From positions 14,572,501 through 14,636,500 of the forward strand of contig OX387200.1 in assembly GCA_947561715.1 (NCBI GenBank): a stretch of DNA of 64,000 bases. The letters run 5' to 3'. Positions 70 to 48,000 of the stretch are shown piece by piece. The notes beneath the pieces are model-generated. The model did not search any database. It was not told the origin of the DNA and saw only the letters and a program-made list of their open reading frames with translations. The stretch's first letter is position 1. Each line of letters starts with the position of its first letter. Position numbers and translations under genes: made by a program. The DNA is from Ascidia mentula. Its lineage: Eukaryota > Chordata > Ascidiacea > Phlebobranchia > Ascidiidae.

Positions 70-3000
70 CTGCATAAATGCGATAGAAACTAAGCATTGG
101 AGAATGGTTCACGTCGATCGACATCAAGCAAAGAAAGTAAAATAGAAACAGATGACTGAGTTCTGAGAAAGGAAATATACTCAAAAAACTACCAGAGATA
201 AAAGAAAAACACCGGTGCGAGACCCTTTTTTGGAGATCGTTTTGGACAGTAGGGGTCCCCAAACATTTACGTTAGAAATTCCTCAGTTTTAGAGCAAGCA
301 TTGAGGCAGGAGATTGGCAGCCTTGGTCATGCGTCCAACCCATATACCAAGACCAAAAACCGGATCGAAATTCGTGGCAAGGATATTCTGGGTTTAAAGC
401 AAGCAGTAATATTCAATGATATGTATATCCATATATATTCGGAATAACTATGAACAACTCACACTCGTATAGGCCCTGAAGCGCCACATGGCTACATTTG
501 ACTTAGATGGGGTCAGTCATCTACTAACACCAAACAACTTTTTTCGTAGTAAAATGGGCAACTTCATAACGATATAACGAGCAACAATAAATGATTTGAG
601 CAAGCACCCAACATATATCCAACATACAAAACGCAACATCATCACATATACTATTACTATGAAGAGTACAAACGAATAAATTAATGTGAAAGTGAAATAA
701 GTGAAAAGAAACCTACTTGCAGTAGACCATGCACTGCCTCGGCGTTCTCTTTAATCATTCCATATCTCTTGTGTAATCGATCATCTCGGTCATCGAGGCT
801 AAGCAAAGCATCCTGAGAAAAACAAAATATGTTTTTACTTACAATGTAGCCATGATTAAATTTCCAGATTTAAAAAATCTGCTACCAAGATTTTTTAGTA
901 CGGGATAACAATATTAAGAACAACGAAAATGGTTAAGGCGTTGGACTCGAAATCCAATGGGATATTCCCGCACAGGTTCGAACCCTGTTCGCAACGTTTC
1001 AATTTTTTCGTCAGGTTATAGTAAGGGTTTATATTCTAGTTTTAGTTAAAACCGAACGTTTTCGTAGCTGCGATGGCCGAGTGGTTAAGGCGTTGGACTT
1101 GAAATCCAATGGGATATTCCCGCATAGGTTCGAACCCTGTTCGCAGCGTTTCAATTTTTTCGTCAGGTTATAGTAAGGGTTTATATTCTAATTTAAGCTA
1201 AAACCGAACGTTTTCGTAGCTGCGATGTCCGAGTGGTTAAGGCGTTGGAGTTGAAATCCAATGGGATATTCCCGCACAGGTTCGAACCCTGTTCGCAGCG
1301 TTTCAATTTTTTCGTCAGGTTATAGTAAGGGTTCATATTCTAGTTTATGTCAAAACTAAACGTTTTCGTTGCTGCGATGGCCGAGTGGTTAAGGCGTTGG
1401 ACTTGAAATCCAATAGGATATTCCTGCACAGGTTTGAACCCTGTTCGCAGCGTTTCAATTTTTTCGTCAGGTTATAGTAAGGGTTCATATTCTAGTTTAT
1501 GACAAAACTAAACGTTTTCGTTGCTGCGATGGCCGAGTGGTTAAGGCGTTGGACTTGAAATCCAATAGGATATTCCCGCACAGGTTCGAACCCCGTTCGC
1601 AGCGTTTCAATTTTTTCGTCAGGTTGGGTTTATATTCTAGTTTATGTCAAAACTAAACGTTTTCGTAGCTGCGATGGCCGAGTGGTTAAGGCGTTGGACT
1701 TGAAATCCAATGGGATATTCCCGCACAGGTTCGAACCCTGTTCGCAGCGTTTCAATTTTTTCGTCAGGTTATAGTAAGGGTTTATATTCTAGTTTATGTC
1801 AAAACTAAACGTTTTCGTAGCTGCGATGGCCGAGTGGTTAAGGCGTTGGACTCGAAATCCAATGGGATATTCCCGCACAGGTTCGAACCCTGTTCGCAAC
1901 GTTTCAATTTTTTCGTCAGGTTATAGTAAGGGTTTATATTCTAGTTTATGTTAAAACTAAACGTTTTCGTAGCTGCGATGGCCGAGTGGTTAAGGCGTTG
2001 GACTTGAAATCCAATGGGATATTCCCGCACAGGTTCGAACCCATGTTCGCAGCGTTTCAATTTTTTCGTCAGGTTATAGTAAGGGTTTATATTCTAGTTT
2101 ATGTTAAAACTAAACGTTTTCGTAGCTGCGATGGCCGAGTGGTTAAGGCGTTGGACTTGAAATCCAATGGGATATTCCCGCACAGGTTCGAACCCTGTTC
2201 GCAGCGTTTCAATTTTTTCGTCAGGTTACAGTAAGGGTTTATATTCTAGTTTATGTTAAAACTAAACGTTTTCGTAGCTGCGATGGCCGAGTGGTTAAGG
2301 CGTTGGACTTGAAATCCAATGGGATATTCCCGCACAGGTTCGAACCCATGTTCGCAGCGTTTCAATTTTTTCATAGTAAGGGTTTATATTCGAGTTTATG
2401 TTAAAACTAAACGTTTTCGTAGCTGCGATGGCCCAGTGGTTAAGGCGTTGGACTTGAAATCCAATGGGATATTCCCGCACAGGTTCGAACCCATGTTCGC
2501 AGCGTTTCAATTTTTTCATAGTAAGGGTTTATATTCGAGTTTATGTTAAAACTAAACGTTTTCGTAGCTGCGATGGCCCAGTGGTTAAGGCGTTGGACTT
2601 GAAATCCAATGGGATATTCCCGCACAGGTTCGAACCCATGTTCGCAGCGTTTCAATTTTTTCATAGTAAGGGTTTATATTCGAGTTTATGTTAAAACTAA
2701 ACGTTTTCGTAGCTGCGATGGCCCAGTGGTTAAGGCGTTGGACTTGAAATCCAATGGGATATTCCCGCACAGGTTCGAACCCATGTTCGCAGCGTTTCAA
2801 TTTTTTCATAGTAAGGGTTTATATTCGAGTTTATGTTAAAACTAAACGTTTTCGTAGCTGCGATGGCCCAGTGGTTAAGGCGTTGGACTTGAAATCCAAT
2901 GGGATATTCCCGCACAGGTTCGAACCCATGTTCGCAGCGTTTCAATTTTTTCATAGTAAGGGTTTATATTCGAGTTTATGTTAAAACTAAACGTTTTCGT

Positions 3001-6000
3001 AGCTGCGATGGCCCAGTGGTTAAGGCGTTGGACTTGAAATCCAATGGGATATTCCCGCACAGGTTCGAACCCATGTTCGCAGCGTTTCAATTCTTTCATA
3101 GTAAGGGTTTATATTCGAGTTTAGGTTAAAACTAAACGTTTTCGTAGCTGCGATGGCCCAGTGGTTAAGGCGTTGGACTTGAAATCCAATGGGATATTCC
3201 CGCACAGGTTCGAACCCATGTTCGCAGCGTTTCAATTTTTTCATAGTAAGGGTTTATATTCGAGTTTATGTTAAAACTAAACGTTTTCGTAGCTGCGATG
3301 GCCCAGTGGTTAAGGCGTTGGACTTTAAATCCAATGGGATATTCCCGCACAGGTTCGAACCCATGTTCGCAGCGTTTCAATTTTTTCATAGTAAGGGTTT
3401 ATATTCGAGTTTATGTTAAAACTAAACGTTTTCGTAGCTGCGATGGCCCAGTGGTTAAGGCGTTGGACTTGAAATCCAATGGGATATTCCCGCACAGGTT
3501 CGAACCCATGTTCGCAGCGTTTCAATTTTTTCATAGTAAGGGTTTATATTCGAGTTTATGTTAAAACTAAACGTTTTCGTAGCTGCGATGGCCCAGTGGT
3601 TAAGGCGTTGGACTTGAAATCCAATGGGATATTCCCGCACAGGTTCGAACCCATGTTCGCAGCGTTTCAATTTTTTCATAGTAAGGGTTTATATTCGAGT
3701 TTATGTTAAAACTAAACGTTTTCGTAGCTGCGATGGCCCAGTGGTTAAGGCGTTGGACTTGAAATCCAATGGGATATTCCCGCACAGGTTCGAACCCATG
3801 TTCGCAGCGTTTCAATTTTTTCGTAGTAAGGGTTTATATTCGAGTTTATGTTAAAACTAAACGTTTTCGTAGCTGCGATGGCCCAGTGGTTAAGGCGTTG
3901 GACTTGAAATCCAATGGGATATTCCCGCACAGGTTCGAACCCATGTTCGCAGCGTTTCAATTTTTTCATAGTAAGGGTTTATATTCGAGTTTATGTTAAA
4001 ACTAAACGTTTTCGTAGCTGCGATGGCCCAGTGGTTAAGGCGTTGGACTTGAAATCCAATGGGATATTCCCGCACAGGTTCGAACCCATGTTCGCAGCGT
4101 TTCAATTTTTTCATAGTAAGGGTTTATATTCGAGTTTATGTTAAAACTAAACGTTTTCGTAGCTGCGATGGCCGAGTGGTTAAGGCGTTGGACTTGAAAT
4201 CCAATGGGATATTCCCGCACAGGTTCGAACCCATGTTCGCAGCGTTTCAATTTTTTCATAGTAAGGGTTTATATTCTAGTTTATGTTAAAACTAAACGTT
4301 TTCGTAGCTGCGATGGCCGAGTGGTTAAGGCGTTGGACTCGAAATCCAATGGGATATTCCCGCACAGGTTCGAACCCTGTTCGCAGCGTTTCAATTTTTG
4401 CATCAGGTTTTAGTAAGGGTTTATATTTTAGTTTATGTCAAAACTAAACGTTTTCGTAGCTGCGATGGCCGAGTGGTTAAGGCGTTGGACTTGAAATCCA
4501 ATGGGATATTCCCGCACAGGTTCGAACCCATGTTCGCAGCGTTTCAATTTTTTCATCAGGTTATAGTAAGGGTTTATATTCTAGTTTATGTCAAAACTAA
4601 ACGTTTTCGTAGCTGCGATGGCCGAGTGGTTAAGGCGTTGGACTCGAAATCCAATGGGATATTCCCGCACAGGTTCGAACCCTGTTCGCAGCGTTTCAAT
4701 TTTTGCATCAGGTTTTAGTAAGGGTTTATATTTTAGTTTATGTCAAAACTAAACGTTTTCGTAGCTGCGATGGCCGAGTGGTTAAGGCGTTGGACTTGAA
4801 ATCCAATGGGATATTCCCGCACAGGTTCGAACCCATGTTCGCAGCGTTTCAATTTTTTCATCAGGTTATAATAAGGGTTTATATTTTAGTTTATGTCAAA
4901 ACTAAACGTTTTCGTAGCTGCGATGGCCGAGTGGTTAAGGCGTTGGACTTGAAATCCAATGTGATATTCCCGCACAGGTTCGAACCCATGTTCGCAGCGT
5001 TTCAATTTTTTCATCAGGTTATAGTAAGGGTTTATATTTTAGTTTATGTCAAAACTAAACGTTTTCGTAGCTGCGATGGCCGAGTGGTTAAGGCGTTGGA
5101 CTTGAAATCCAATGGGATATTCCCGCACAGGTTCGAACCCATGTTCGCAGCGTTTCAATTTTTTCATAGTAAGGGTTTATATTCGAGTTTATGTTAAAAC
5201 TAAACGTTTTCGTAGCTGCGATGGCCGAGTGGTTAAGGCGTTGGACTCGAAATCCAATGGGATATTCCCGCACAGGTTCGAACCCTGTTCGCAGCGTTTC
5301 AATTTTTTCATCAGGTTTTAGTAAGGGTTTATATTTTAGTTTATGTCAAAACTAAACGTTTTCGTAGCTGCGATGGCCGAGTGGTTAAGGCGTTGGACTT
5401 GAAATCCAATGGGATATTCCCGCACAGGTTCGAACCCTGTTCGCAGCGTTTCAATTTTTTCATCAGGTTATAATAAGGGTTTATATTTTAGTTTATGTCA
5501 AAACTAAACGTTTTCGTAGCTGCGATGGCCGAGTGGTTAAGGCGTTGGACTTGAAATCCAATGTGATATTCCCGCACAGGTTCGAACCCATGTTCGCAGC
5601 GTTTCAATTTTTTCATCAGGTTATAGTAAGGGTTTATATTTTAGTTTATGTCAAAACTAAACGTTTTCTACTGCAAGTAGGTTTCTTTTCACTTATTTCA
5701 CTTTCACATTAATTTATTCGTTTGTACTCTTCATAGTAATAGTATATGTGATGATGTTGCGTTTTGTATGTTGGATATATGTTGGGTGCTTGCTCAAATC
5801 ATTTATTGTTGCTCGTTATATCGTTATGAAGTTGCCCATTTTACTACGAAAAAAGTTGTTTGGTGTTAGTAGATGACTGACCCCATCTAAGTCAAATGTA
5901 GCCATGTGGCGCTTCAGGGCCTATACGAGTGTGAGTTGTTCATAGTTATTCCGAATATATATGGATATACATATCATTGAATATTACTGCTTGCTTTAAA

Positions 6001-9000
6001 CCCAGAATATCCTTGCCACGAATTTCGATCCGGTTTTTGGTCTTGGTATATGGGTTGGACGCATGACCAAGGCTGCCAATCTAAAACCGAACGTTTTCGT
6101 AGCTGCGATGGCCGAGTGGTTAAGGCGTTGGACTTGAAATCCAATGGGATATTCCCGCATAGGTTCGAACCCTGTTCGCAGCGTTTCAATTTTTTCGTCA
6201 GGTTATAGTAAGGGTTTATATTCTAATTTAAGCTAAAACCGAACGTTTTCGTAGCTGCGATGTCCGAGTGGTTAAGGCGTTGGAGTTGAAATCCAATGGG
6301 ATATTCCCGCACAGGTTCGAACCCTGTTCGCAGCGTTTCAATTTTTTCGTCAGGTTATAGTAAGGGTTCATATTCTAGTTTATGTCAAAACTAAACGTTT
6401 TCGTTGCTGCGATGGCCGAGTGGTTAAGGCGTTGGACTTGAAATCCAATAGGATATTCCTGCACAGGTTTGAACCCTGTTCGCAGCGTTTCAATTTTTTC
6501 GTCAGGTTATAGTAAGGGTTCATATTCTAGTTTATGACAAAACTAAACGTTTTCGTTGCTGCGATGGCCGAGTGGTTAAGGCGTTGGACTTGAAATCCAA
6601 TAGGATATTCCCGCACAGGTTCGAACCCCGTTCGCAGCGTTTCAATTTTTTCGTCAGGTTGGGTTTATATTCTAGTTTATGTCAAAACTAAACGTTTTCG
6701 TAGCTGCGATGGCCGAGTGGTTAAGGCGTTGGACTTGAAATCCAATGGGATATTCCCGCACAGGTTCGAACCCTGTTCGCAGCGTTTCAATTTTTTCGTC
6801 AGGTTATAGTAAGGGTTTATATTCTAGTTTATGTCAAAACTAAACGTTTTCGTAGCTGCGATGGCCGAGTGGTTAAGGCGTTGGACTCGAAATCCAATGG
6901 GATATTCCCGCACAGGTTCGAACCCTGTTCGCAGCGTTTCAATTTATTCGTCAGGTTATAGTAAGGGTTTATATTCTAGTTTATGTTAAAACTAAACGTT
7001 TTCGTAGCTGCGATGGCCGAGTGGTTAAGGCGTTGGACTTGAAATCCAATGGGATATTCCCGCACAGGTTCGAACCCATGTTCGCAGCGTTTCAATTTTT
7101 TCGTCAGGTTATAGTAAGGGTTTATATTCTAGTTTATGTTAAAACTAAACGTTTTCGTAGCTGCGATGGCCGAGTGGTTAAGGCGTTGGACTTGAAATCC
7201 AATGGGATATTCCCGCACAGGTTCGAACCCTGTTCGCAGCGTTTCAATTTTTTCGTCAGGTTACAGTAAGGGTTTATATTCTAGTTTATGTTAAAACTAA
7301 ACGTTTTCGTAGCTGCGATGGCCGAGTGGTTAAGGCGTTGGACTTGAAATCCAATGGGATATTCCCGCACAGGTTCGAACCCATGTTCGCAGCGTTTCAA
7401 TTTTTTCATAGTAAGGGTTTATATTCGAGTTTATGTTAAAACTAAACGTTTTCGTAGCTGCGATGGCCCAGTGGTTAAGGCGTTGGACTTGAAATCCAAT
7501 GGGATATTCCCGCACAGGTTCGAACCCATGTTCGCAGCGTTTCAATTTTTTCATAGTAAGGGTTTATATTCGAGTTTATGTTAAAACTAAACGTTTTCGT
7601 AGCTGCGATGGCCCAGTGGTTAAGGCGTTGGACTTGAAATCCAATGGGATATTCCCGCACAGGTTCGAACCCATGTTCGCAGCGTTTCAATTTTTTCATA
7701 GTAAGGGTTTATATTCGAGTTTATGTTAAAACTAAACGTTTTCGTAGCTGCGATGGCCCAGTGGTTAAGGCGTTGGACTTGAAATCCAATGGGATATTCC
7801 CGCACAGGTTCGAACCCATGTTCGCAGCGTTTCAATTTTTTCATAGTAAGGGTTTATATTCGAGTTTATGTTAAAACTAAACGTTTTCGTAGCTGCGATG
7901 GCCCAGTGGTTAAGGCGTTGGACTTGAAATCCAATGGGATATTCCCGCACAGGTTCGAACCCATGTTCGCAGCGTTTCAATTTTTTCATAGTAAGGGTTT
8001 ATATTCGAGTTTATGTTAAAACTAAACGTTTTCGTAGCTGCGATGGCCCAGTGGTTAAGGCGTTGGACTTGAAATCCAATGGGATATTCCCGCACAGGTT
8101 CGAACCCATGTTCGCAGCGTTTCAATTCTTTCATAGTAAGGGTTTATATTCGAGTTTAGGTTAAAACTAAACGTTTTCGTAGCTGCGATGGCCCAGTGGT
8201 TAAGGCGTTGGACTTGAAATCCAATGGGATATTCCCGCACAGGTTCGAACCCATGTTCGCAGCGTTTCAATTTTTTCATAGTAAGGGTTTATATTCGAGT
8301 TTATGTTAAAACTAAACGTTTTCGTAGCTGCGATGGCCCAGTGGTTAAGGCGTTGGACTTTAAATCCAATGGGATATTCCCGCACAGGTTCGAACCCATG
8401 TTCGCAGCGTTTCAATTTTTTCATAGTAAGGGTTTATATTCGAGTTTATGTTAAAACTAAACGTTTTCGTAGCTGCGATGGCCCAGTGGTTAAGGCGTTG
8501 GACTTGAAATCCAATGGGATATTCCCGCACAGGTTCGAACCCATGTTCGCAGCGTTTCAATTTTTTCATAGTAAGGGTTTATATTCGAGTTTATGTTAAA
8601 ACTAAACGTTTTCGTAGCTGCGATGGCCCAGTGGTTAAGGCGTTGGACTTGAAATCCAATGGGATATTCCCGCACAGGTTCGAACCCATGTTCGCAGCGT
8701 TTCAATTTTTTCATAGTAAGGGTTTATATTCGAGTTTATGTTAAAACTAAACGTTTTCGTAGCTGCGATGGCCCAGTGGTTAAGGCGTTGGACTTGAAAT
8801 CCAATGGGATATTCCCGCACAGGTTCGAACCCATGTTCGCAGCGTTTCAATTTTTTCGTAGTAAGGGTTTATATTCGAGTTTATGTTAAAACTAAACGTT
8901 TTCGTAGCTGCGATGGCCCAGTGGTTAAGGCGTTGGACTTGAAATCCAATGGGATATTCCCGCACAGGTTCGAACCCATGTTCGCAGCGTTTCAATTTTT

Positions 9001-12000
9001 TCATAGTAAGGGTTTATATTCGAGTTTATGTTAAAACTAAACGTTTTCGTAGCTGCGATGGCCCAGTGGTTAAGGCGTTGGACTTGAAATCCAATGGGAT
9101 ATTCCCGCACAGGTTCGAACCCATGTTCGCAGCGTTTCAATTTTTTCATAGTAAGGGTTTATATTCGAGTTTATGTTAAAACTAAACGTTTTCGTAGCTG
9201 CGATGGCCGAGTGGTTAAGGCGTTGGACTTGAAATCCAATGGGATATTCCCGCACAGGTTCGAACCCATGTTCGCAGCGTTTCAATTTTTTCATAGTAAG
9301 GGTTTATATTCTAGTTTATGTTAAAACTAAACGTTTTCGTAGCTGCGATGGCCGAGTGGTTAAGGCGTTGGACTCGAAATCCAATGGGATATTCCCGCAC
9401 AGGTTCGAACCCTGTTCGCAGCGTTTCAATTTTTGCATCAGGTTTTAGTAAGGGTTTATATTTTAGTTTATGTCAAAACTAAACGTTTTCGTAGCTGCGA
9501 TGGCCGAGTGGTTAAGGCGTTGGACTTGAAATCCAATGGGATATTCCCGCACAGGTTCGAACCCATGTTCGCAGCGTTTCAATTTTTTCATCAGGTTATA
9601 GTAAGGGTTTATATTCTAGTTTATGTCAAAACTAAACGTTTTCGTAGCTGCGATGGCCGAGTGGTTAAGGCGTTGGACTCGAAATCCAATGGGATATTCC
9701 CGCACAGGTTCGAACCCTGTTCGCAGCGTTTCAATTTTTGCATCAGGTTTTAGTAAGGGTTTATATTTTAGTTTATGTCAAAACTAAACGTTTTCGTAGC
9801 TGCGATGGCCGAGTGGTTAAGGCGTTGGACTTGAAATCCAATGGGATATTCCCGCACAGGTTCGAACCCATGTTCGCAGCGTTTCAATTTTTTCATCAGG
9901 TTATAATAAGGGTTTATATTTTAGTTTATGTCAAAACTAAACGTTTTCGTAGCTGCGATGGCCGAGTGGTTAAGGCGTTGGACTTGAAATCCAATGTGAT
10001 ATTCCCGCACAGGTTCGAACCCATGTTCGCAGCGTTTCAATTTTTTCATCAGGTTATAGTAAGGGTTTATATTTTAGTTTATGTCAAAACTAAACGTTTT
10101 CGTAGCTGCGATGGCCGAGTGGTTAAGGCGTTGGACTTGAAATCCAATGGGATATTCCCGCACAGGTTCGAACCCATGTTCGCAGCGTTTCAATTTTTTC
10201 ATAGTAAGGGTTTATATTCGAGTTTATGTTAAAACTAAACGTTTTCGTAGCTGCGATGGCCGAGTGGTTAAGGCGTTGGACTCGAAATCCAATGGGATAT
10301 TCCCGCACAGGTTCGAACCCTGTTCGCAGCGTTTCAATTTTTTCATCAGGTTTTAGTAAGGGTTTATATTTTAGTTTATGTCAAAACTAAACGTTTTCGT
10401 AGCTGCGATGGCCGAGTGGTTAAGGCGTTGGACTTGAAATCCAATGGGATATTCCCGCACAGGTTCGAACCCTGTTCGCAGCGTTTCAATTTTTTCATCA
10501 GGTTATAATAAGGGTTTATATTTTAGTTTATGTCAAAACTAAACGTTTTCGTAGCTGCGATGGCCGAGTGGTTAAGGCGTTGGACTTGAAATCCAATGTG
10601 ATATTCCCGCACAGGTTCGAACCCATGTTCGCAGCGTTTCAATTTTTTCATCAGGTTATAGTAAGGGTTTATATTTTAGTTTATGTCAAAACTAAACGTT
10701 TTCGTAGCTGCGATGGCCGAGTGGTTAAGGCGTTGGACTTGAAATCCAATGGGATATTCCCGCACAGGTTCGAACCCATGTTCGCAGCGTTTCAATTTTT
10801 TCATCAGGTTATAATAAGGGTTTATATTTTAGTTTATGTCAAAACTAAACGTTTTCGTAGCTGCGATGGCCGAGTGGTTAAGGCGTTGGACTTGAAATCC
10901 AATGGGATATTCCCGCACAGGTTCGAACCCATGTTCGCAGCGTTTCAATTTTTTCATAGTAAGGGTTTATATTCGAGTTTATGTTAAAACTAAACGTTTT
11001 CGTAGCTGCGATGGCCCAGTGGTTAAGGCGTTGGACTTGAAATCCAATGGGATATTCCCGCACAGGTTCGAACCCATGTTCGCAGCGTTTCAATTTTTTC
11101 ATAGTAAGGGTTTATATTCTAGTTTATGTTAAAACTAAACGTTTTCGTAGCTGCGATGGCCGAGTGGTTAAGGCGTTGGACTCGAAATCCAATGGGATAT
11201 TCCCGCACAGGTTCGAACCCTGTTCGCAGCGTTTCAATTTTTGCATCAGGTTTTAGTAAGGGTTTATATTTTAGTTTATGTCAAAACTAAACGTTTTCGT
11301 AGCTGCGATGGCCGAGTGGTTAAGGCGTTGGACTTGAAATCCAATGGGATATTCCCGCACAGGTTCGAACCCATGTTCGCAGCGTTTCAATTTTTTCATC
11401 AGGTTATAGTAAGGGTTTATATTTTAGTTTATGTCAAAACTAAACGTTTTCGTAGCTGCGATGGCCGAGTGGTTAAGGCGTTGGACTTGAAATCCAATGG
11501 GATATTCCCGCACAGGTTCGAACCCATGTTCGCAGCGTTTCAATTTTTTCGTCAGGTTATAGTAAGGGTTTATATTTTAGTTTATGTCAAAACTAAACGT
11601 TTTCGTAGCTGCGATGGCCGAGTGGTTAAGGCGTTGGACTTGAAATCCAATGGGATATTCCCGCACAGGTTCGAACCCATGTTCGCAGCGTTTCAATTTT
11701 TTCATCAGGTTATAGTAAGGGTTTATATTCTAGTTTATGTCAAAACTAAACGTTTTCGTAGCTGCGATGGCCGAGTGGTTAAGGCGTTGGACTTGAAATC
11801 CAATGGGATAGTCCCGCACAGGTTCGAACCCATGTTCGCAGCGTTTCAATTTTTTCGTCAGGTTATAGTAAGGGTTTATATTTTAGTTTATGTCAAAACT
11901 AAACGTTTTCGTAGCTGCGATGGCCGAGTGGTTAAGGCGTTGGACTCGAAATCCAATGGGATATTCCCGCACAGGTTCGAACCCTGTTCGCAGCGTTTCA

Positions 12001-15000
12001 ATTTTTTCGTCAGGTTATAGTAAGGGTTTATATTCTAGTTTATGTCAAAACTAAACGTTTTCGTAGCTGCGATGGCCGAGTGGTTAAGGCGTTGGACTCG
12101 AAATCCAATGGGATATTCCCGCACAGGTTCGAACCCTGTTCGCAGCGTTTCAATTTATTCGTCAGGTTATAGTAAGGGTTTATATTCTAGTTTATGTTAA
12201 AACTAAACGTTTTCGTAGCTGCGATGGCCGAGTGGTTAAGGCGTTGGACTCGAAATCCAATGGGATATTCCCGCACAGGTTCGAACCCTGTTCGCAGCGT
12301 TTCAATTTTTTCGTCAGGTTAAAGTAAGGGTTTATATTCGAGTTTATGTTAAAACTAAACGTTTTCGTAGCTGCGATGGCCGAGTGGTTAAGGCGTTGGA
12401 CTCGAAATCCAATGGGATATTCCCGCACAGGTTCGAACCCTGTTCGCAGCGTTTCAATTTTTTCGTCAGGTTACAGTAAGGGTTTATATTCTAGTTTATG
12501 TTAAAACTAAACGTTTTCGTAGCTGCGATGGCCGAGTGGTTAAGGCGTTGGACTTGAAATCCAATGGGATATTCCCGCACAGGTTCGAACCCATGTTCGC
12601 AGCGTTTCAATTTTTTCATAGTAAGGGTTTATATTCGAGTTTATGTTAAAACTAAACGTTTTCGTAGCTGCGATGGCCCAGTGGTTAAGGCGTTGGACTT
12701 GAAATCCAATGGGATATTCCCGCACAGGTTCGAACCCATGTTCGCAGCGTTTCAATTTTTTCATAGTAAGGGTTTATATTCGAGTTTATGTTAAAACTAA
12801 ACGTTTTCGTAGCTGCGATGGCCCAGTGGTTAAGGCGTTGGACTTGAAATCCAATGGGATATTCCCGCACAGGTTCGAACCCATGTTCGCAGCGTTTCAA
12901 TTTTTTCATAGTAAGGGTTTATATTCGAGTTTATGTTAAAACTAAACGTTTTCGTAGCTGCGATGGCCCAGTGGTTAAGGCGTTGGACTTGAAATCCAAT
13001 GGGATATTCCCGCACAGGTTCGAACCCATGTTCGCAGCGTTTCAATTTTTTCATAGTAAGGGTTTATATTCGAGTTTATGTTAAAACTAAACGTTTTCGT
13101 AGCTGCGATGGCCCAGTGGTTAAGGCGTTGGACTTGAAATCCAATGGGATATTCCCGCACAGGTTCGAACCCATGTTCGCAGCGTTTCAATTTTTTCATA
13201 GTAAGGGTTTATATTCTAGTTTATGTTAAAACTAAACGTTTTCGTAGCTGCGATGGCCGAGTGGTTAAGGCGTTGGACTCGAAATCCAATGGGATATTCC
13301 CGCACAGGTTCGAACCCTGTTCGCAGCGTTTCAATTTTTGCATCAGGTTTTAGTAAGGGTTTATATTTTAGTTTATGTCAAAACTAAACGTTTTCGTAGC
13401 TGCGATGGCCGAGTGGTTAAGGCGTTGGACTCGAAATCCAATGGGATATTCCCGCACAGGTTCGAACCCTGTTCGCAGCGTTTCAATTTTTTCATCAGGT
13501 TATAGTAAGGGTTTATATTCTAGTTTATGTCACAACTAAACGTTTTCGTAGCTGCGATGGCCGAGTGGTTAAGGCGTTGGACTTGAAATCCAATGGGATA
13601 TTCCCGCACAGGTTCGAACCCATGTTCGCAGCGTTTCAATTTTTTCGTCAGGTTATAGTAAGGGTTTATATTTTAGTTTATGTCAAAACTAAACGTTTTC
13701 GTAGCTGCGATGGCCGAGTGGTTAAGGCGTTGGACTCGAAATCCAATGGGATATTCCCGCACAGGTTCGAACCCTGTTCGCAGCGTTTCAATTTTTTCGT
13801 CAGGTTATAGTAAGGGTTTATATTTTAGTTTATGTCAAAACTAAACGTTTTCGTAGCTGCGATGGCCGAGTGGTTAAGGCGTTGGACTCGAAATCCAATG
13901 GGATATTCCCGCACAGGTTCGAACCCTGTTCGCAGCGTTTCAATTTTTTCGTCAGGTTATAGTAAGGGTTTATATTCTAGTTTATGTCAAAACTAAACGT
14001 TATCGTAGCTGCGAAGCCGAGTGGTTCAGGCGTTGGACTCGAAATCCAATGGGATATTCCCGCACAGGTTCGAACCCTGTTCGCAGCGTTTCAATTTTTT
14101 CGTCAGGTTATAGTAAGGGTTTATATTCTAGTTTATGTCAAAACTAAACGTTATCGTAGCTGCGATGGCCGAGTGGTTCAGGCGTTGGACTCGAAATCCA
14201 ATGGGATATTCCCGCACAGGTTCGAACCCTGTTCGCAGCGTTTCAATTTTTTCGTCAGGTTATAGTAAGGGTTTATATTCTAGTTTATGTCAAAACTAAA
14301 CGTTATCGTAGCTGCGATGGCCGAGTGGTTCAGGCGTTGGACTCGAAATCCAATGGGATATTCCCGCACAGGTTCGAACCCTGTTCGCAGCGTTTCAATT
14401 TTTTCGTCAGGTTATAGTAAGGGTTTATATTCTAGTTTATGTCAAAACTAAACGTTATCGTAGCTGCGATGGCCGAGTGGTTCAGGCGTTGGACTCGAAA
14501 TCCAATGGGATATTCCCGCACAGGTTCGAACCCTGTTCGCAGCGTTTCAATTTTTTCGTCAGGTTATAGTAAGGGTTTATATTCTAGTTTATGTCAAAAC
14601 TAAACGTTTTCGTAGCTGCGATGGCCGAGTGGTTAAGGCGTTGGACTCGAAATCCAATGGGATATTCCCGCACAGGTTCGAACCCTGTTCGCAGCGTTTC
14701 AATTTTTTCGTCAGGTTATAGTAAGGGTTTATATTCTAGTTTATGACAAAACTAAACGTTTTCGTAGCTGCGATGGCCGAGTGGTTAAGGCGTTGGACTT
14801 GAAATCCAATGGGATATTCCCGCACAGGTTCGAACCCTGTTCGCAGCGTTTCACTTTTTTCGTCAGGTTATAGTAAGGGTTTATATTCTAGTTTATGTCA
14901 AAACTAAACGTTTTCGTAGCTGCGATGGCCGAGTGGTTAAGGCGTTGGACTTGAAATCCAATGGGATATTCCCGCACAGGTTCGAACCCTGTTCGCAGCG

Positions 15001-36000: not shown

Positions 36001-39000
36001 AGTTTATGTCAAAACTAAACGTTTTCGTAGCTGCGATGGCCGAGTGGTTAAGGCGTTGGACTCGAAATCCAATGGGATATTCCCGCACAGGTTCGAACCC
36101 TGTTCGCATCGTTTCAATTTTTTCGTCAGGTTATAGTAAGGGTTTATATTCTAGTTTATGTCAAAACTAAACGTTTTCGTAGCTGCGATGGCCGAGTGGT
36201 TAAGGCGTTGGACTTGAAATCCAATGGGATATTCCCGCACAGGTTCGAACCCTGTTCGCAGCGTTTCAATTTTTTCGTCAGGTTATAGTAAGGGTTTATA
36301 TTCTAGTTTATGTCAAAACTAAACGTTTTCGTAGCTGCGATGGCCGAGTGGTTAAGGCGTTGGACTCGAAATCCAATGGGATATTCCCGCACAGGTTCGA
36401 ACCCTGTTCGCAGCGTTACAATTTTTTCGTCAGGTTATAGTAAGGGTTTATATTCTAGTTTATGTCAAAACTAAACGTTTTCGTAGCTGCGATGGCCGAG
36501 TGGTTAAGGCGTTGGACTCGAAATCCAATGGGATATTCCCGCACAGGTTCGAACCCTGTTCGCAGCGTTTCAATTTTTTCGTCAGGTTATAGTAAGGGTT
36601 TATATTCTAGTTTATGTCAAAAGTAAACGTTTTCGTAGCTGCGATGGCCGAGTGGTTAAGGCGTTGGACTCGAAATCCAATGGGATATTCCCGCACAGGT
36701 TCGAACCCTGTTCGCAGCCTTTCCATTTTTTTCGTCAGGTTATAGTAAAAGTTTATATTCTAGTTTATGTCAAAACTAAACGTTTTCGTAGCTGCGATGG
36801 CCGAGTGGTTAAGGCGTTGGACTTGAAATCCAATGGGATATTCCCGCACAGGTTCGAACCCTGTTCGCAGCGTTTCAATTTTTTCGTCAGGTTATAGTAA
36901 GGGTTTATATTCTAGTTTATGTCAAAACTAAACGTTTTCGTAGCTGCGATGGCCGAGTGGTTAAGGCGTTGGACTTGAAATCCAATGGGATATTCCCGCA
37001 CAGGTTCGAACCCTGTTCGCAGCGTTTCAATTTTTTCGTCAGGTTATAGTAAGGGTTTATATTCTAGTTTATGTCAAAACTAAACGTTTTCGTAGCTGCG
37101 ATGGCCGAGTGGTTAAGGCGTTGGACTTGAAATCCAATGGGATATTCCCGCACAGGTTCGAACCCTGTTCGCAGCGTTTCAATTTTTTCGTCAGGTTATA
37201 GTAAGGGTTTATATTCTAGTTTATGTCAAAACTAAACGTATTCGTAGCTGCGATGGCCGAGTGGTTAAGGCGTTGGACTTGAAATCCAATGGGATATTCC
37301 CGCACAGGTTCGAACCCTGTTCGCAGCCTTTCCATTTTTTTAGTCAGGTTATAGTAAAAGTTTATATTCTAGTTTATGTCAAAACTAAACGTTTTCGTAG
37401 CTGCGATGGCCGAGTGGTTAAGGCGTTGGACTTGAAATCCAATGGGATATTCCCGTACAGGTTCGAACCCTGTTCGCAGCGTTTCAATTTTTTCGTCAGG
37501 TTATAGTAAGGGTTTATATTCTAGTTTATGTCAAAACTAAACGTTTTCGTAGCTGCGATGGCCGAGTGGTTAAGGCGTTGGACTTGAAATCCAATGGGAT
37601 ATTCCCGCACAGGTTCGAACCCTGTTCGCAGCGTTTCAATTTTTTCGTCAGGTTATAGTAAGGGTTTATATTCTAGTTTATGTCAAAACTAAACGTTTTC
37701 GTAGCTGCGATGGCCGAGTGGTTAAGGCGTTGGACTCGAAATCCAATGGGATATTCCCGCACAGGTTCGAACCCTGTTCGCAGCGTTTCAATTTTTTCGT
37801 CAGGTTATAGTAAGGGTTTATATTCTAGTTTATGTCAAAAGTAAACGTTTTCGTAGCTGCGATGGCCGAGTGGTTAAGGCGTTGGACTCGAAATCCAATG
37901 GGATATTCCCGCACAGGTTCGAACCCTGTTCGCAGCGTTTCAATTTTTTCGTCAGGTTATAGTAAGGGTTTATATTCTAGTTTATGTCAAAACTAAACGT
38001 TTTCGTAGCTGCGATGGCCGAGTGGTTAAGGCGTTGGACTCGAAATCCAATGGGATATTCCCGCACAGGTTCGAACCCTGTTCGCAGCCTTTCCATTTTT
38101 TTAGTCAGGTTATAGTAAAAGTTTATATTTTAGTTTATGTCAAAACTAAACGTTTTCGTAGCTGCGATGGCCGAGTGGTTAAGGCGTTGGACTTGAAATC
38201 CAATGGGATATTCCCGTACAGGTTCGAACCCTGTTCGCAGCGTTTCAATTTTTTCGTCAGGTTATAGTAAGGGTTTATATTCTAGTTTATGTCAAAACTA
38301 AACGTTTTCGTAGCTGCGATGGCCGAGTGGTTAAGGCGTTGGACTTGAAATCCAATGGGATATTCCCGCACAGGTTCGAACCCTGTTCGCAGCGTTTCAA
38401 TTTTTTCGTCAGGTTATAGTAAGGGTTTATATTCTAGTTTATGTCAAAACTAAACGTTTTCGTAGCTGCGATGGCCGAGTGGTTAAGGCGTTGGACTCGA
38501 AATCCAATGGGATATTCCCGCACAGGTTCGAACCCTGTTCGCAGCGTTTCAATTTTTTCGTCAGGTTATAGTAAGGGTTTATATTCTAGTTTATGTCAAA
38601 ACTAAACGTTTTCGTAGCTGCGATGGCCGAGTGGTTAAGACGTTGGACTTGAAATCCAATAGGATATTCCCGCACAGGTTCGAACCCTGTTCGCAGCGTT
38701 TCAATTTTTTCGTCAGGTTATAGTAAGGGTTTATATTCTAGTTTATGTCAAAACTAAACGTTTTCGTAGCTGCGATGGCCGAGTGGTTAAGGCGTTGGAC
38801 TTGAAATCCAATGGGATATTCCCGCACAGGTTCGAACTCTGTTCGCAGCGTTTCAATTTTTTCGTCAGGTTATAGTAAGGGTTTATATTCTAGTTTATGT
38901 CAAAACTAAACGTTTTCGTAGCTGCGATGGCCGAGTGGTTAAGGCGTTGGACTTGAAATCCAATGGGATATTCCCGCACAGGTTCGAACCCTGTTCGCAG

Positions 39001-42000
39001 CGTTTCAATTTTTTCGTCAGGTTATAGTAAGGGTTTATATTCTAGTTTATGTCAAAACTAAACGTTTTCGTAGCTGCGATGGCCGAGTGGTTAAGGCGTT
39101 GGGCTCGAAATCCAATGGGATATTCCCGCACAGGTTCGAACCCTGTTCGCAGCGTTTCAATTTTTTCGTCAGGTTATAGTAAGGGTTTATATTCTAGTTT
39201 ATGTCAAAACTAAACGTTTTCGTAGCTGCGATGGCCGAGTGGTTAAGGCGTTGGACTCGAAATCCAATGGGATATTCCCGCACAGGTTCGAACCCTGTTC
39301 GCAGCGTTTCAATTTTTTCGTCAGGTTATAGTAAGGGTTTATATTCTAGTTTATGTCAAAAGTAAACGTTTTCGTAGCTGCGATGGCCGAGTGGTTAAGG
39401 CGTTGGACTCGAAATCCAATGGGATATTCCCGCACAGGTTCGAACCCTGTTCGCAGCCTTTCCATTTTTTTCGTCAGGTTATAGTAAAAGTTTATATTCT
39501 AGTTTATGTCAAAACTAAACGTTTTCGTAGCTGCGATGGCCGAGTGGTTAAGGCGTTGGACTTGAAATCCAATGGGATATTCCCGCACAGGTTCGAACTC
39601 TGTTCGCAGCCTTTCAATTTTTTCGTCAGGTTATAGTAAGGGTTTATATTCTAGTTTATGTCAAAACTAAACGTTTTCGTAGCTGCGATGGCCGAGTGGT
39701 TAAGGCGTTGGACTTGAAATCCAATGGGATATTCCCGCACAGGTTCGAACCCTGTTCGCAGCGTTTCAATTTTTTCGTCAGGTTATAGTAAGGGTTTATA
39801 TTCTAGTTTATGTCAAAACTAAACGTTTTCGTAGCTGCGATGGCCGAGTGGTTAAGGCGTTGGACTCGAAATCCAATGGGATATTCCCGCACAGGTTCGA
39901 ACCCTGTTCGCAGCGTTTTAATTTTTTCGTCAGGTTATAGTAAGGGTTTATATTCTAGTTTATGTCAAAACTAAACGTTTTCGTAGCTGCGATGGCCGAG
40001 TGGTTAAGGCGTTGGACTCGAAATCCAATGGGATATTCCCGCACAGGTTCGAACCCTGTTCGCAGCCTTTCCATTTTTTTAATCAGGTTATAGTAAAAGT
40101 TTATATTCTAGTTTATGTCAAAACTAAACGTTTTCGTAGCTGCGATGGCCGAGTGGTTAAGGCGTTGGACTTGAAATCCAATGGGATATTCCCGTACAGG
40201 TTCGAACCCTGTTCGCAGCGTTTCAATTTTTTCGTCAGGTTATAGTAAGGGTTTATATTCTAGTTTATGTCAAAACTAAACGTTTTCGTAGCTGCGATGG
40301 CCGAGTGGTTAAGGCGTTGGACTTGAAATCCAATGGGATATTCCCGCACAGGTTCGAACCCTGTTCGCAGCGTTTCAATTTTTTCGTCAGGTTATAGTAA
40401 GGGTTTATATTCTAGTTTATGTCAAAACTAAACGTTTTCGTAGCTGCGATGGCCGAGTGGTTAAGGCGTTGGACTTGAAATCCAATGGGATATTCCCGCA
40501 CAGGTTCGAACCCTGTTCGCAGCGTTTCAATTTTTTCGTCAGGTTATAGTAAGGGTTTATATTCTAGTTTATGTCAAAACTAAACGTTTTCGTAGCTGCG
40601 ATGGCCGAGTGGTTAAGGCGTTGGACTCGAAATCCAATGGGATATTCCCGCACAGGTTCGAACCCTGTTCGCAGCGTTTCAATTTTTTCGTCAGGTTATA
40701 GTAAGGGTTTATATTCTAGTTTATGTCAAAACTAAACGTTTTCGTAGCTGCGATGGCCGAGTGGTTAAGGCGTTGGACTCGAAATCCAATGGGATATTCC
40801 CGCACAGGTTCGAACCCTGTTCGCAGCGTTTCAATTTTTTCGTCAGGTTATAGTAAGGGTTTATATTCTAGTTTATGTCAAAACTAAACGTTTTCGTAGC
40901 TGCGATGGCCGAGTGGTTAAGGCGTTGGACTCGAAATCCAATGGGATATTCCCGCACAGGTTCGAACCCTGTTCGCATCGTTTCAATTTTTTCGTCAGGT
41001 TATAGTAAGGGTTTATATTCTAGTTTATGTCAAAACTAAACGTTTTCGTAGCTGCGATGGCCGAGTGGTTAAGGCGTTGGACTTGAAATCCAATGGGATA
41101 TTCCCGCAAAGGTTCGAACCCTGTTCGCAGCGTTTCAATTTTTTCGTCAGGTTATAGTAAGGGTTTATATTCTAGTTTATGTCAAAACTAAACGTTTTCG
41201 TAGCTGCGATGGCCGAGTGGTTAAGGCGTTGGACTCGAAATCCAATGGGATATTCCCGCACAGGTTCGAACCCTGTTCGCAGCGTTACAATTTTTTCGTC
41301 AGGTTATAGTAAGGGTTTATATTCTAGTTTATGTCAAAACTAAACGTTTTCGTAGCTGCGATGGCCGAGTGGTTAAGGCGTTGGACTCGAAATCCAATGG
41401 GATATTCCCGCACAGGTTCGAACCCTGTTCGCAGCGTTTCAATTTTTTCGTCAGGTTATAGTAAGGGTTTATATTCTAGTTTATGTCAAAAGTAAACGTT
41501 TTCGTAGCTGCGATGGCCGAGTGGTTAAGGCGTTGGACTCGAAATCCAATGGGATATTCCCGCACAGGTTCGAACCCTGTTCGCAGCCTTTCCATTTTTT
41601 TCGTCAGGTTATAGTAAAAGTTTATATTCTAGTTTATGTCAAAACTAAACGTTTTCGTAGCTGCGATGGCCGAGTGGTTAAGGCGTTGGACTTGAAATCC
41701 AATGGGATATTCCCGCACAGGTTCGAACCCTGTTCGCAGCGTTTCAATTTTTTCGTCAGGTTATAGTAAGGGTTTATATTCTAGTTTATGTCAAAACTAA
41801 ACGTTTTCGTAGCTGCGATGGCCGAGTGGTTAAGGCGTTGGACTTGAAATCCAATGGGATATTCCCGCACAGGTTCGAACCCTGTTCGCAGCGTTTCAAT
41901 TTTTTCGTCAGGTTATAGTAAGGGTTTATATTCTAGTTTATGTCAAAACTAAACGTTTTCGTAGCTGCGATGGCCGAGTGGTTAAGGCGTTGGACTTGAA

Positions 42001-45000
42001 ATCCAATGGGATATTCCCGCACAGGTTCGAACCCTGTTCGCAGCGTTTCAATTTTTTCGTCAGGTTATAGTAAGGGTTTATATTCTAGTTTATGTCAAAA
42101 CTAAACGTATTCGTAGCTGCGATGGCCGAGTGGTTAAGGCGTTGGACTTGAAATCCAATGGGATATTCCCGCACAGGTTCGAACCCTGTTCGCAGCCTTT
42201 CCATTTTTTTAGTCAGGTTATAGTAAAAGTTTATATTCTAGTTTATGTCAAAACTAAACGTTTTCGTAGCTGCGATGGCCGAGTGGTTAAGGCGTTGGAC
42301 TTGAAATCCAATGGGATATTCCCGTACAGGTTCGAACCCTGTTCGCAGCGTTTCAATTTTTTCGTCAGGTTATAGTAAGGGTTTATATTCTAGTTTATGT
42401 CAAAACTAAACGTTTTCGTAGCTGCGATGGCCGAGTGGTTAAGGCGTTGGACTTGAAATCCAATGGGATATTCCCGCACAGGTTCGAACCCTGTTCGCAG
42501 CGTTTCAATTTTTTCGTCAGGTTATAGTAAGGGTTTATATTCTAGTTTATGTCAAAACTAAACGTTTTCGTAGCTGCGATGGCCGAGTGGTTAAGGCGTT
42601 GGACTCGAAATCCAATGGGATATTCCCGCACAGGTTCGAACCCTGTTCGCAGCGTTTCAATTTTTTCGTCAGGTTATAGTAAGGGTTTATATTCTAGTTT
42701 ATGTCAAAAGTAAACGTTTTCGTAGCTGCGATGGCCGAGTGGTTAAGGCGTTGGACTCGAAATCCAATGGGATATTCCCGCACAGGTTCGAACCCTGTTC
42801 GCAGCCTTTCCATTTTTTTAGTCAGGTTATAGTAAAAGTTTATATTTTAGTTTATGTCAAAACTAAACGTTTTCGTAGCTGCGATGGCCGAGTGGTTAAG
42901 GCGTTGGACTTGAAATCCAATGGGATATTCCCGTACAGGTTCGAACCCTGTTCGCAGCGTTTCAATTTTTTCGTCAGGTTATAGTAAGGGTTTATATTCT
43001 AGTTTATGTCAAAACTAAACGTTTTCGTAGCTGCGATGGCCGAGTGGTTAAGGCGTTGGACTTGAAATCCAATGGGATATTCCCGCACAGGTTCGAACCC
43101 TGTTCGCAGCGTTTCAATTTTTTCGTCAGGTTATAGTAAGGGTTTATATTCTAGTTTATGTCAAAAGTAAACGTTTTCGTAGCTGCGATGGCCGAGTGGT
43201 TAAGGCGTTGGACTCGAAATCCAATGGGATATTCCCGCACAGGTTCGAACCCTGTTCGCAGCGTTTCAATTTTTTCGTCAGGTTATAGTAAGGGTTTATA
43301 TTCTAGTTTATGTCAAAACTAAACGTTTTCGTAGCTGCGATGGCCGAGTGGTTAAGGCGTTGGACTCGAAATCCAATGGGATATTCCCGCACAGGTTCGA
43401 ACCCTGTTCGCAGCCTTTCCATTTTTTTAGTCAGGTTATAGTAAAAGTTTATATTTTAGTTTATGTCAAAACTAAACGTTTTCGTAGCTGCGATGGCCGA
43501 GTGGTTAAGGCGTTGGACTTGAAATCCAATGGGATATTCCCGTACAGGTTCGAACCCTGTTCGCAGCGTTTCAATTTTTTCGTCAGGTTATAGTAAGGGT
43601 TTATATTCTAGTTTATGTCAAAACTAAACGTTTTCGTAGCTGCGATGGCCGAGTGGTTAAGGCGTTGGACTTGAAATCCAATGGGATATTCCCGCACAGG
43701 TTCGAACCCTGTTCGCAGCGTTTCAATTTTTTCGTCAGGTTATAGTAAGGGTTTATATTCTAGTTTATGTCAAAACTAAACGTTTTCGTAGCTGCGATGG
43801 CCGAGTGGTTAAGGCGTTGGACTCGAAATCCAATGGGATATTCCCGCACAGGTTCGAACCCTGTTCGCAGCGTTTCAATTTTTTCGTCAGGTTATAGTAA
43901 GGGTTTATATTCTAGTTTATGTCAAAACTAAACGTTTTCGTAGCTGCGATGGCCGAGTGGTTAAGACGTTGGACTTGAAATCCAATAGGATATTCCCGCA
44001 CAGGTTCGAACCCTGTTCGCAGCGTTTCAATTTTTTCGTCAGGTTATAGTAAGGGTTTATATTCTAGTTTATGTCAAAACTAAACGTTTTCGTAGCTGCG
44101 ATGGCCGAGTGGTTAAGGCGTTGGACTTGAAATCCAATGGGATATTCCCGCACAGGTTCGAACTCTGTTCGCAGCGTTTCAATTTTTTCGTCAGGTTATA
44201 GTAAGGGTTTATATTCTAGTTTATGTCAAAACTAAACGTTTTCGTAGCTGCGATGGCCGAGTGGTTAAGGCGTTGGACTTGAAATCCAATGGGATATTCC
44301 CGCACAGGTTCGAACCCTGTTCGCAGCGTTTCAATTTTTTCGTCAGGTTATAGTAAGGGTTTATATTCTAGTTTATGTCAAAACTAAACGTTTTCGTAGC
44401 TGCGATGGCCGAGTGGTTAAGGCGTTGGGCTCGAAATCCAATGGGATATTCCCGCACAGGTTCGAACCCTGTTCGCAGCGTTTCAATTTTTTCGTCAGGT
44501 TATAGTAAGGGTTTATATTCTAGTTTATGTCAAAACTAAACGTTTTCGTAGCTGCGATGGCCGAGTGGTTAAGGCGTTGGACTTGAAATCCAATGGGATA
44601 TTCCCGCACAGGTTCGAACCCTGTTCGCAGCGTTTCAATTTTTTCGTCCGGTTACAGTAAGGGTTTATGTTCTAGTTTATGTCAAAACTAAACGTTTTCG
44701 TAGCTGCGATGGCCGAGTGGTTAAGGCGTTGGACTTGAAATCCAATGGGATATTCCCGCACAGGTTCGAACCCTGTTCGCAGCGTTTCAATTTTTTCGTC
44801 AGGTTATAGTAAGGGTTTATGTTCTAGTTTATGTCAAAACTAAACGTTTTCGTAGCTGCGATGGCCGAGTGGTTAAGGCGTTGGACTTGAAATCCAATGG
44901 GATATTCCCGCACAGGTTCGAACCCTGTTCGCAGCGTTTCAATTTTTTCGTCAGGTTATAGTAAGGGTTTATATTCTAGTTTATGTCAAAACTAAACGTT

Positions 45001-48000
45001 TTCGTAGCTGCGATGGCCGAGTGGTTAAGGCGTTGGACTTGAAATCCAATGGGATATTCCCGCACAGGTTCGAACCCAGTTCGCAGCGTTTCAATTTTTT
45101 CGTCAGGTTATAGTAAGGGTTTATATTCTAGTTTATGTCAAAACTAAACGTTTTCGTAGCTGCGATGGCCGAGTGGTTAAGGCGTTGGACTTGAAATCCA
45201 ATGGGATATTCCCGCACAGGTTCGAACCCTGTTCGCAGCGTTTCAATTTTTTCGTCAGGTTATAGTAAGGGTTTATATTCTAGTTGATGTCAAAACTAAA
45301 CGTTTTCGTAGCTGCGATGGCCGAGTGGTTAAGGCGTTGGACTTGAAATCCAATGGGATATTCCCGCACAGGTTCGAACCCTGTTCGCAGCGTTTCAATT
45401 TTTTCGTCAGGTTATAGTAAGGGTTTATATTCTAGTTTATGTCAAAACTAAACGTTTTCGTAGCTGCGATGGCCGAGTGGTTAAGGCGTTGGACTCGAAA
45501 TCCAATGGGATATTCCCGCACAGGTTCGAACTCTGTTCGCAGCGTTTCAATTTTTTCGTCAGGTTATAGCAAGGGTTTATATTCTAGTTTATGTCAAAAG
45601 AAAACGTTTTCGTAGCTGCGATGGCCGAGTGGTTAAGGCGTTGGACTCGAAATCCAATGGGATATTCCCGCACAGGTTCGAACCCTGTTCGCAGCGTTTC
45701 AATTTTTTCGTCAGGTTATAGTAAGGGTTTATATTCTAGTTTATGTCAAAACTAAACGTTTTCGTAGCTGCGATGGCCGAGTGGTTAAGGCGTTGGACTT
45801 GAAATCCAATGGGATATTCCGGCACAGGTTCGAACCCTGTTCGCAGCGTTTCAATTTTTTCGTCAGGTTATAGTAAGGGTTTATATTCTAGTTTATGTCA
45901 AAACTAAACGTTTTCGTAGCTGCGATGGCCGAGTGGTTAAGGCGTTGGACTTGAAATCCAATGGGATATTCCCGCACAGGTTCGAACCCTGTTCGCAGCG
46001 TTTCAATTTTTTCGTCAGGTTATAGTAAGGGTTTATATTCTAGTTTATGTCAAAACTAAACGTTTTCGTAGCTGCGATGGCCGAGTGGTTAAGGCGTTGG
46101 ACTTGAAATCCAATGGGATATTCCCGCACAGGTTCGAACCCTGTTCGCAGCGTTTCAATTTTTTCGTCAGGTTATAGTAAGGGTTTATATTCTAGTTTAT
46201 GTCAAAACTAAACGTTTTCGTAGCTGCGATGGCCGAGTGGTTAAGGCGTTGGACTTGAAATCCAATGGGATATTCCCGCACAGGTTCGAACCCTGTTCGC
46301 AGCGTTTCAATTTTTTCGTCAGGTTATAGTAAGGGTTTATATTCTAGTTTATGTCAAAACTAAACGTTTTCGTAGCTGCGATGGCCGAGTGGTTAAGGCG
46401 TTGGACTTGAAATCCAATGGGATATTCCCGCACAGGTTCGAACCCTGTTCGCAGCGTTTCAATTTTTTCGTCAGGTTATAGTAAGGGTTTATATTCTAGT
46501 TTATGTCAAAACTAAACGTTTTCGTAGCTGCGATGGCCGAGTGGTTAAGGCGTTGGACTCGAAATCCAATGGGATATTCCCGGACAGGTTCGAACCCTGT
46601 TCGCAGCGTTTCATTTTTTTCGTCAGGTTATAGTAAGGGTTTATATTCTAGTTTATGTCAAAACTAAACGTTTTCGTAGCTGCGATGGCCGAGTGGTTAA
46701 GGCGTTGGACTCGAAATCCAATGGGATATTCCCGCACAGGTTCGAACCCTGTTCGCAGCGTTTCATTTTTGTCGTCAGGTTATAGTAAGGGTTTATATTC
46801 TAGTTTATGTCAAAACTAAACGTTTTCGTAGCTGCGATGGCCGAGTGGTTAAGGCGTTGGACTTGAAATCCAATGGGATATTCCCGCACAGGTTCGAACC
46901 CTGTTCGCAGCGTTTCAAGTTTTTCGTCAGGTTATAGTAAGGGTTTATATTCTGGTTTATGTCAAAACTAAACGTTTTCGTAGCTGCGATGGCCGAGTGG
47001 TTAAGGCGTTGGACTCGAAATCCAATGGGATATTCCCGCACAGGTTCGAATCCTGTTCGCAGCGTTTCAAGTTTTTCGTCAGGTTATAGTAAGGGTTTAT
47101 ATTCTAGTTTATGTCAAAACTAAACGTTTTCGTAGCTGCGATGGCCGAGTGGTTAAGGCGTTGAACTTTAAGACATCTTACCTTTTTGTTTTCCTTCCTT
47201 TCGAAAAGTGGCAAAACCCATGTGGTCATGATTTTATTAATTTTCGTTACATTGTCTTTCGCCTTCTGCACTCTATCCTCTAAGTCTCGCACTTGGTCTC
47301 TCACATCTTGTATGTACTCCCAAACACCTGCACAACATCGAGTCACATGTATTTCTTTCTGAGTTCCAATTATTTTTTTTTGTAGTGTTTTGTTGTTGGT
47401 ATTCCGAATCAATTTTGGAACGGATACAAATGGCGAAATCCCGTAGTTTCCGAAATGTCAACAAATCACCGCTAGTTTGTTTGCCATCTTTAATGTAATT
47501 TGTTCACTCGCTCGTGCCAGTTTGCAAATATAGGCAAATTTTTTTTATCCTAATGCTCAAGAGTAATTGTTAAAACTCCAGCGTGGTGAATAACGAAGAA
47601 ACTTTGAAGAAAAATAATCAACGATATTGATATCTCAAAGTTGACGTTATTTACTCATCGAAGACAACCGTTAAAGGAAAACCTTATTTCCCGTCAAATT
47701 GTGTTCTGCTAACTCCTGTTACCCTACCATTGCTTTTCCAGCTGAGGTCTGTTTCAGCTTTAGTCATATAATCATCAATAGTGCTGAGCTGTCCGTCGAT
47801 CAACGGGTATTCAACATCAAGTATAGAATTTCGCACCTGCAGTTGATAATAGAAGTCTTAATTCGTATGATATTGGTCTATTTCAGAATATAAACGTCCA
47901 GAAATTTCCATAGATTATGCTACAAAAAAATGACAGCACTAAATGGATGTTGTACCTTGTTGTACCACTGCTGCGTGAGGTCGAGATTGGCCACGTACTG

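Follow-up and report, generated by a model that had tools for sequence, protein, structure and literature searches.

A long antisense tRNA-Ser gene array within a dynein heavy chain intron of the ascidian Ascidia mentula

The organisation of transfer RNA (tRNA) genes in eukaryotic genomes has been surveyed (PMC2888827), and both the clustering of tRNA genes in ascidians and the interference of an antisense intronic RNA polymerase III (Pol III) unit with its host gene in mammals are already known. According to the available parts of the sources cited here, which set the scope of the statements drawn from them, about 40% of the tRNA genes of Ciona intestinalis and Botryllus schlosseri and 90% of those of C. 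savignyi are clustered, and D. vexillum and O. dioica show hardly any clustering (PMC5006418). In Caenorhabditis elegans, intronic tRNA genes oriented opposite to their host show higher Pol III occupancy, and the host promoter influences tRNA expression (PMC4999229). Here we describe a tandem array of tRNA-Ser genes from Ascidia mentula that fills a single intron and runs antisense to its host, an outer-arm dynein heavy chain gene. It lies in a 64-kb stretch of chromosome 4 (C67:14572501-14636500; hereafter the window, with position 1 as its first base), which was compared with an assembly of 79 contigs (195.84 Mb). The COX1 encoded on contig C79 (19,461 bp) yields, by eye, the conserved protein if AGR is translated as glycine in accordance with the ascidian mitochondrial code. 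We consider it likely that this is a real and recently expanded Pol III array of tRNA-Ser (UGA/CGA) genes and one of several tRNA arrays of this species.

The array consists of head-to-tail units with a single period on a single strand. Tandem Repeats Finder (TRF) resolved 306.1 copies of a 152-bp period with 96% matches, and ARAGORN recognised 302 tRNA genes, all on the plus strand and none on the minus strand. Matches to the tRNA covariance model RF00005 at or above the gathering score were equally numerous (cmscan; 302 in total, 150 of them displayed individually), in agreement with the roughly 300 copies given in a preliminary description made from the letters of the window. That description had placed the array between 930 and 47163; this location holds, with the end now placed at 47168. 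The array is not uniform, as 145-bp variants, mixed anticodons and a non-tRNA insert were found. Between recognised starts there are 298 intervals, of which 212 measure 152 bp, 43 measure 145 bp and 38 measure 153 bp; the remainder comprises four intervals of 303 bp, each concealing one more unit, and one of 583 bp across the insert. Among these intervals 89 distinct unit sequences occur, the commonest of them 60 times. The units at both ends are incomplete, and both termini are cut within the tRNA part, where inspection by eye revealed a sequence common to both (TGGTTAAGGCGTTG). The window contains no N.

The host gene is encoded on the minus strand. A donor (GTAAGA at 47181) and an acceptor (TTTTTCTCAG ending at 813) delimit a GT-AG intron of 46,369 bp, 99.7% of which is occupied by the array. 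The flanking exons join in frame, and the resulting 83 amino acid residues align without gaps to residues 785-865 of DNAH9 (E 1.2e-21); the second-best match, DNAH17, is weaker and requires one gap (E 1.4e-16). Judged from these predicted exons, the array would separate two exons that belong together in a protein-coding gene, and with all 302 tRNA genes on the plus strand it is antisense to its host within the intron. The preliminary description had already proposed a dynein host, the intronic location, the in-frame joining of the exons and the antisense orientation, all of which are upheld. Eight matches to the joined exons were obtained in the assembly, three of which represent the present locus (91-97% identity) and five of which lie on C70 and C72 (43-57%); at such low identities of the non-locus matches, no closer second dynein copy was seen elsewhere. 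Both the splice sites and the collinear match to DNAH9 speak against a simple misjoin.

Apart from two units with the anticodon TTA, the tRNA genes combine a serine anticodon (TGA or CGA, see Table 1) with a covariance-model match. In a simple check for an A box, a B box and the absence of a T-stem bulge, 214 of the 302 units were intact (118 TGA and 96 CGA), and a run of at least four T within about 30 nt 3' of the tRNA was present at 299 of 303 anchors. The consensus unit folds into a cloverleaf (-31.0 kcal/mol, z -2.64); a bulged unit adopts a different fold (z -1.51) and a CGA unit with an altered acceptor stem a weaker one (z -0.46). Both TTA units (3292-3374 and 8327-8409) carry a T-stem bulge and are mutual copies within a duplicated block. 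If used, this anticodon would decode the stop codon UAA. The array tRNA has only two close dispersed relatives, C52:4023068 (TGA) and C52:4023571 (CGA), both of which align over the tRNA part alone. In the array the T-stem opens with an A-U pair (269 of 302 units, the other 33 being unread by the pattern) and in both relatives with G-C, a compensated change. A 21-base signature of the array has 209 exact copies in the assembly, all 209 within the window. From these sequence features we infer that the array units are transcribed Pol III genes.

The dynein intron is not the only site of this kind. A second array, composed of 61 tRNA-Ser(AGA) genes on the minus strand (C67:10659542-10668789), is located within a 9,609-bp intron (C67:10659379-10668987) of a plus-strand gene and is hence also antisense to its host. 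In the two sequence stretches of this region, L011 and L012, the donor GTGACC follows TGCTTCAG (L011:880) and the acceptor CTCTTTTTAG ends at L012:587. The joined exons encode 145 amino acid residues that correspond to one MAM domain (118.4 bits, profile positions 17-158), which is split by the intron. A frame with a GIY-YIG domain in the same region (L012:1153-1815, minus strand, 27.5 bits) perhaps belongs to a mobile element. The third array holds 549 tRNA genes, all on the plus strand (C70:14198647-14281939), in which Lys-TTT and Glu-CTC alternate (271 Lys-TTT, 271 Glu-CTC, 6 Glu-TTC and 1 Asp-GTC). By eye, it ends about 400 bp from the apparent 3' end of an opposite-strand NACHT-LRR gene, no continuation of which was seen to the left of the array. 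This array thus appears to be intergenic, and a rule that every tRNA array is intronic is rejected on this ground. Flanks were read for these three arrays, Ser(UGA/CGA), Ser(AGA) and Lys/Glu; two of them lie in introns, in each case antisense to the host. Across the genome, 63 of 19,702 first-look candidates were scored. Further arrays are present. One holds Arg-ACG/TCG genes, with matches from C69:4254773 onwards (40 of 323 candidates scored) and 12 of 12 genes on the minus strand within a stretch of 2.5 kb. At 9.34-9.42 Mb of C67, Val genes occur together with Arg-TCT (40 of 208 scored), and at 13.92-14.02 Mb of the same contig Asp-Asp-Pro genes form units of about 2,140 bp (40 of 333 scored). 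Gly arrays lie on C67 and C72 (37 of 37 scored). A Leu-TAA cluster comprises 14 genes on mixed strands. The earlier interpretation was sound as to host, intron, direction and copy number; its context shifts, since the dynein array is one of several tRNA arrays and the second is likewise intronic and antisense.

Within the dynein array, two near-identical blocks (1049-5667 and 6084-10702) are separated by an inverted 416-bp non-tRNA insert, which duplicates the dynein flank at 311-726. The longest exact repeat measures 3,757 bp, and exact repeats above 1 kb occur at ten more offsets. The units are thus homogenised with local re-duplication, and the long exact repeats point to recent local amplification. 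The inverted piece reflects either template switching or an assembly fault, and in the assembly it is the near-perfect 5-kb duplication with its inverted piece of flank that deserves the least confidence. Because exact repeats of this length are difficult for any assembler, the array might belong wholly or partly elsewhere, or its copy number might be wrong. We regard such an artefact as distinctly unlikely, as the window is free of N, both edges are dynein sequence present in one copy, where the splice sites match and the alignment has no gap, and the genome note reports 74x HiFi coverage, Hi-C curation and a QV of 64.9 (PMC11109543).

As to the origin of the array, a founder tRNA gene with a spacer of about 70 bp would have arrived in a short intron of the dynein gene, a route that we infer. 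Unequal exchange and local re-copying may have amplified the founder head to tail into some 300 units, the CGA isoacceptors may have arisen by one anticodon base change, and splicing would remove the array as a single very long intron. The intron may be able to host the array since a unit, read in the sense of dynein, contains no recognisable tRNA gene and little that resembles a splice signal: GTAAG occurs 272 times on the tRNA strand of the array and not once on the dynein-sense strand, and acceptor-like sites number 12 and 1, respectively. For the polyadenylation words, the counts on the tRNA and the dynein-sense strand are 0 and 4 for AATAAA and 1 and 7 for ATTAAA. Antisense placement would be favoured over sense, since tRNA-processing enzymes could cleave tRNAs that run in sense within the pre-mRNA, and at this locus a sense array would bring in about 270 decoy 5' splice sites. 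Active units would slow RNA polymerase II (Pol II) on its way through the dynein gene, so that most units would be silent, or dynein low, where the array is active. Under an assumed loss of 1% of Pol II per unit, the 214 intact units would permit a passage of about 12%, which would imply either that the array is for the most part silent at sites of dynein expression or that each unit costs very little Pol II. The concern over intron transcription time raised in the preliminary description is weak by itself, as at the elongation rates of Pol II the crossing of 46 kb should take only tens of minutes. Its question of polymerase collision is legitimate and has a precedent with one antisense Pol III unit (PMC5358760), but an effect of the array on dynein would be predicted by analogy with that case. 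A broader proposal holds that introns of Pol II genes recurrently house tRNA mega-arrays in this ascidian, that orientation is selected and only antisense arrays persist because sense copies would be excised from the pre-mRNA and disturb splicing, that a large share of the tRNA supply of a chordate is coupled to host transcription, and that dynein and tRNA-Ser output are mutually exclusive between cell types. As a whole, it is speculative and probably does not hold.

Several observations weigh against this account of the array. Read in the dynein sense, each unit contains the weak polyadenylation-like words TATAAA (296 times in the intron) and AATATA (297 times). In the Ser(AGA) array GTAAG is found once on the host strand and not on the other, and the host strand contains 36 ATTAAA; the splice-signal asymmetry is absent there and is accordingly an observation at the dynein locus and not a general rule. 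The reverse complement of the dynein array unit folds as strongly as the unit itself (-30.6 kcal/mol, z -3.55), which does not support an unstructured antisense RNA and implies that the dynein pre-mRNA would still contain strong hairpins. In C. elegans, 56% of the intronic tRNA genes are co-directional with their host, and sense placement of single genes is hence tolerated there (PMC4999229). By the box and stem check, 88 of the 302 units are altered. Lastly, the account draws support from substitution-variable sites being scarcer in the tRNA part than in the spacer: in the Ser(UGA/CGA) array they amount to 29 of 81 versus 39 of 70 (p 0.021; anticodon column excluded; 293 of 302 units, nine being excluded for irregular intervals) and in the Ser(AGA) array to 5 of 82 versus 12 of 69 (p 0.038; 51 of 61 units), but both tests ignore the shared ancestry of the units.

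The altered units, the recent block duplications and the presence of just two close relatives elsewhere, which could provide the function, would suit a tRNA-derived satellite that was amplified without use and without Pol III transcription. Such a satellite is nonetheless unlikely in view of the 214 intact units, the greater variability of the spacer in two arrays, the compensated T-stem pair and the T-runs 3' of the gene. Far less credible still is the insertion of a tRNA-derived short interspersed nuclear element (SINE) or another retroelement, for which the tRNA-derived sequence within the intron could speak: the copies are arranged head to tail with a full tRNA, the 21-base signature is confined to the window, the C52 relatives match over the tRNA alone, and the assembly yielded no scattered copies that have a non-tRNA part in common. 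A regulatory device, in which antisense Pol III activity sets the dynein output by Pol II, would have an equal geometry in the mammalian Polr3e gene, where deletion of an antisense intronic MIR relieved the accumulation of Pol II and raised the protein almost 1.5-fold (PMC5358760). We consider it very unlikely here, because the second array resides in an unrelated MAM-domain gene and the Lys/Glu array is apparently intergenic, so that the arrays show no special link to dynein. A recently expanded Pol III array remains the preferred reading.

The features of the locus are compiled in Table 1. Leftward of the intron, the frames continue into sequence that by eye resembles an AAA domain, and the frame at 54236-54613 had no match in Pfam. 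Frames on the plus strand at 56038-59161 had no Pfam match in the three tested; judged by eye, they look similar to sphingosine-1-phosphate lyase.

Table 1 Features of the tRNA-Ser array and its dynein host gene (positions within the 64-kb window)
Feature	Position	Strand	Evidence
Dynein exon that follows the intron (DALLSLDD...VHGLLQ), outer limit by eye	717..812	-	Sequence; DNAH9 alignment
GT-AG dynein intron, 46,369 bp	813..47181	-	Donor GTAAGA, acceptor TTTTTCTCAG
Tandem tRNA-Ser array, period 152 bp (variants 145, 153)	930..47168	+	TRF, unit spacing
Array block recurring at offset 5035 (6084-10702), 2 mismatches in 4,619 bases	1049..5667	+	Sequence
302 tRNA-Ser genes: TGA 196, CGA 104, TTA 2	1067..47064	+	ARAGORN, cmscan RF00005, anticodon count
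Unit with a TTA anticodon and a bulged T-stem; copy at 8327-8409 in the duplicated block	3292..3374	+	ARAGORN, anticodon count
Exact inverted copy of dynein flank 311-726, 416 bp, within the array	5667..6082	-	blastn, 416/416 identical, opposite strand
Dynein exon that precedes the intron (GVWEYIQ...ERKENKK), outer limit by eye	47182..47327	-	Sequence; DNAH9 alignment
Two upstream dynein exons (49495-49824, 51380-51628), DHC_N1	49495..51628	-	Pfam PF08385, 48.6 and 75.4 bits

In the available main text of the genome note the word tRNA is absent (PMC11109543), and no title in the searched literature, which mostly lay outside subscription papers and bioRxiv, reports an intron-filling antisense tRNA array. 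The clusters of Ciona and Botryllus resemble the A. mentula array in being direct tandem copies of tRNA genes; in contrast to the present case, the available account is silent on introns, on orientation relative to a host and on arrays that number hundreds of genes (PMC5006418). The Ser-Tyr-Tyr (SYY) cluster of Arabidopsis likewise contains tandem serine tRNA genes and grew by tandem duplication, but it is a plant cluster of mixed Ser and Tyr genes, heterochromatic and silent in most tissues, and a host intron is not mentioned in the text available (PMC12308677). C. elegans shares with A. mentula the location of tRNA genes within introns, where they occur as individual genes and not as arrays (PMC4999229). 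Mammalian Polr3e, like the locus described here, combines an antisense Pol III unit with a Pol II intron, and there the unit obstructs Pol II; it is, however, one SINE copy as opposed to 302 tRNA genes, and interference in A. mentula would follow by analogy (PMC5358760). The dynein array provides a natural experiment on the passage of Pol II through hundreds of Pol III units that oppose it, on the way in which a large tRNA family homogenises and shifts its anticodon within one array, and on whether selection acts on the orientation of nested tRNA genes. In Entamoeba, as in A. mentula, tRNA genes form long tandem arrays, which there contain most of the tRNA genes in single- or multi-gene units; this protist differs in that the arrays of E. 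histolytica fall into 25 types in which short tandem repeats separate the genes, and host introns go unmentioned in the part of the account available (PMC2652664). The arrays of A. mentula, several of them on one chromosome, suggest that much of a chordate's complement of tRNA genes can reside in long tandem arrays, in a manner similar to Entamoeba.

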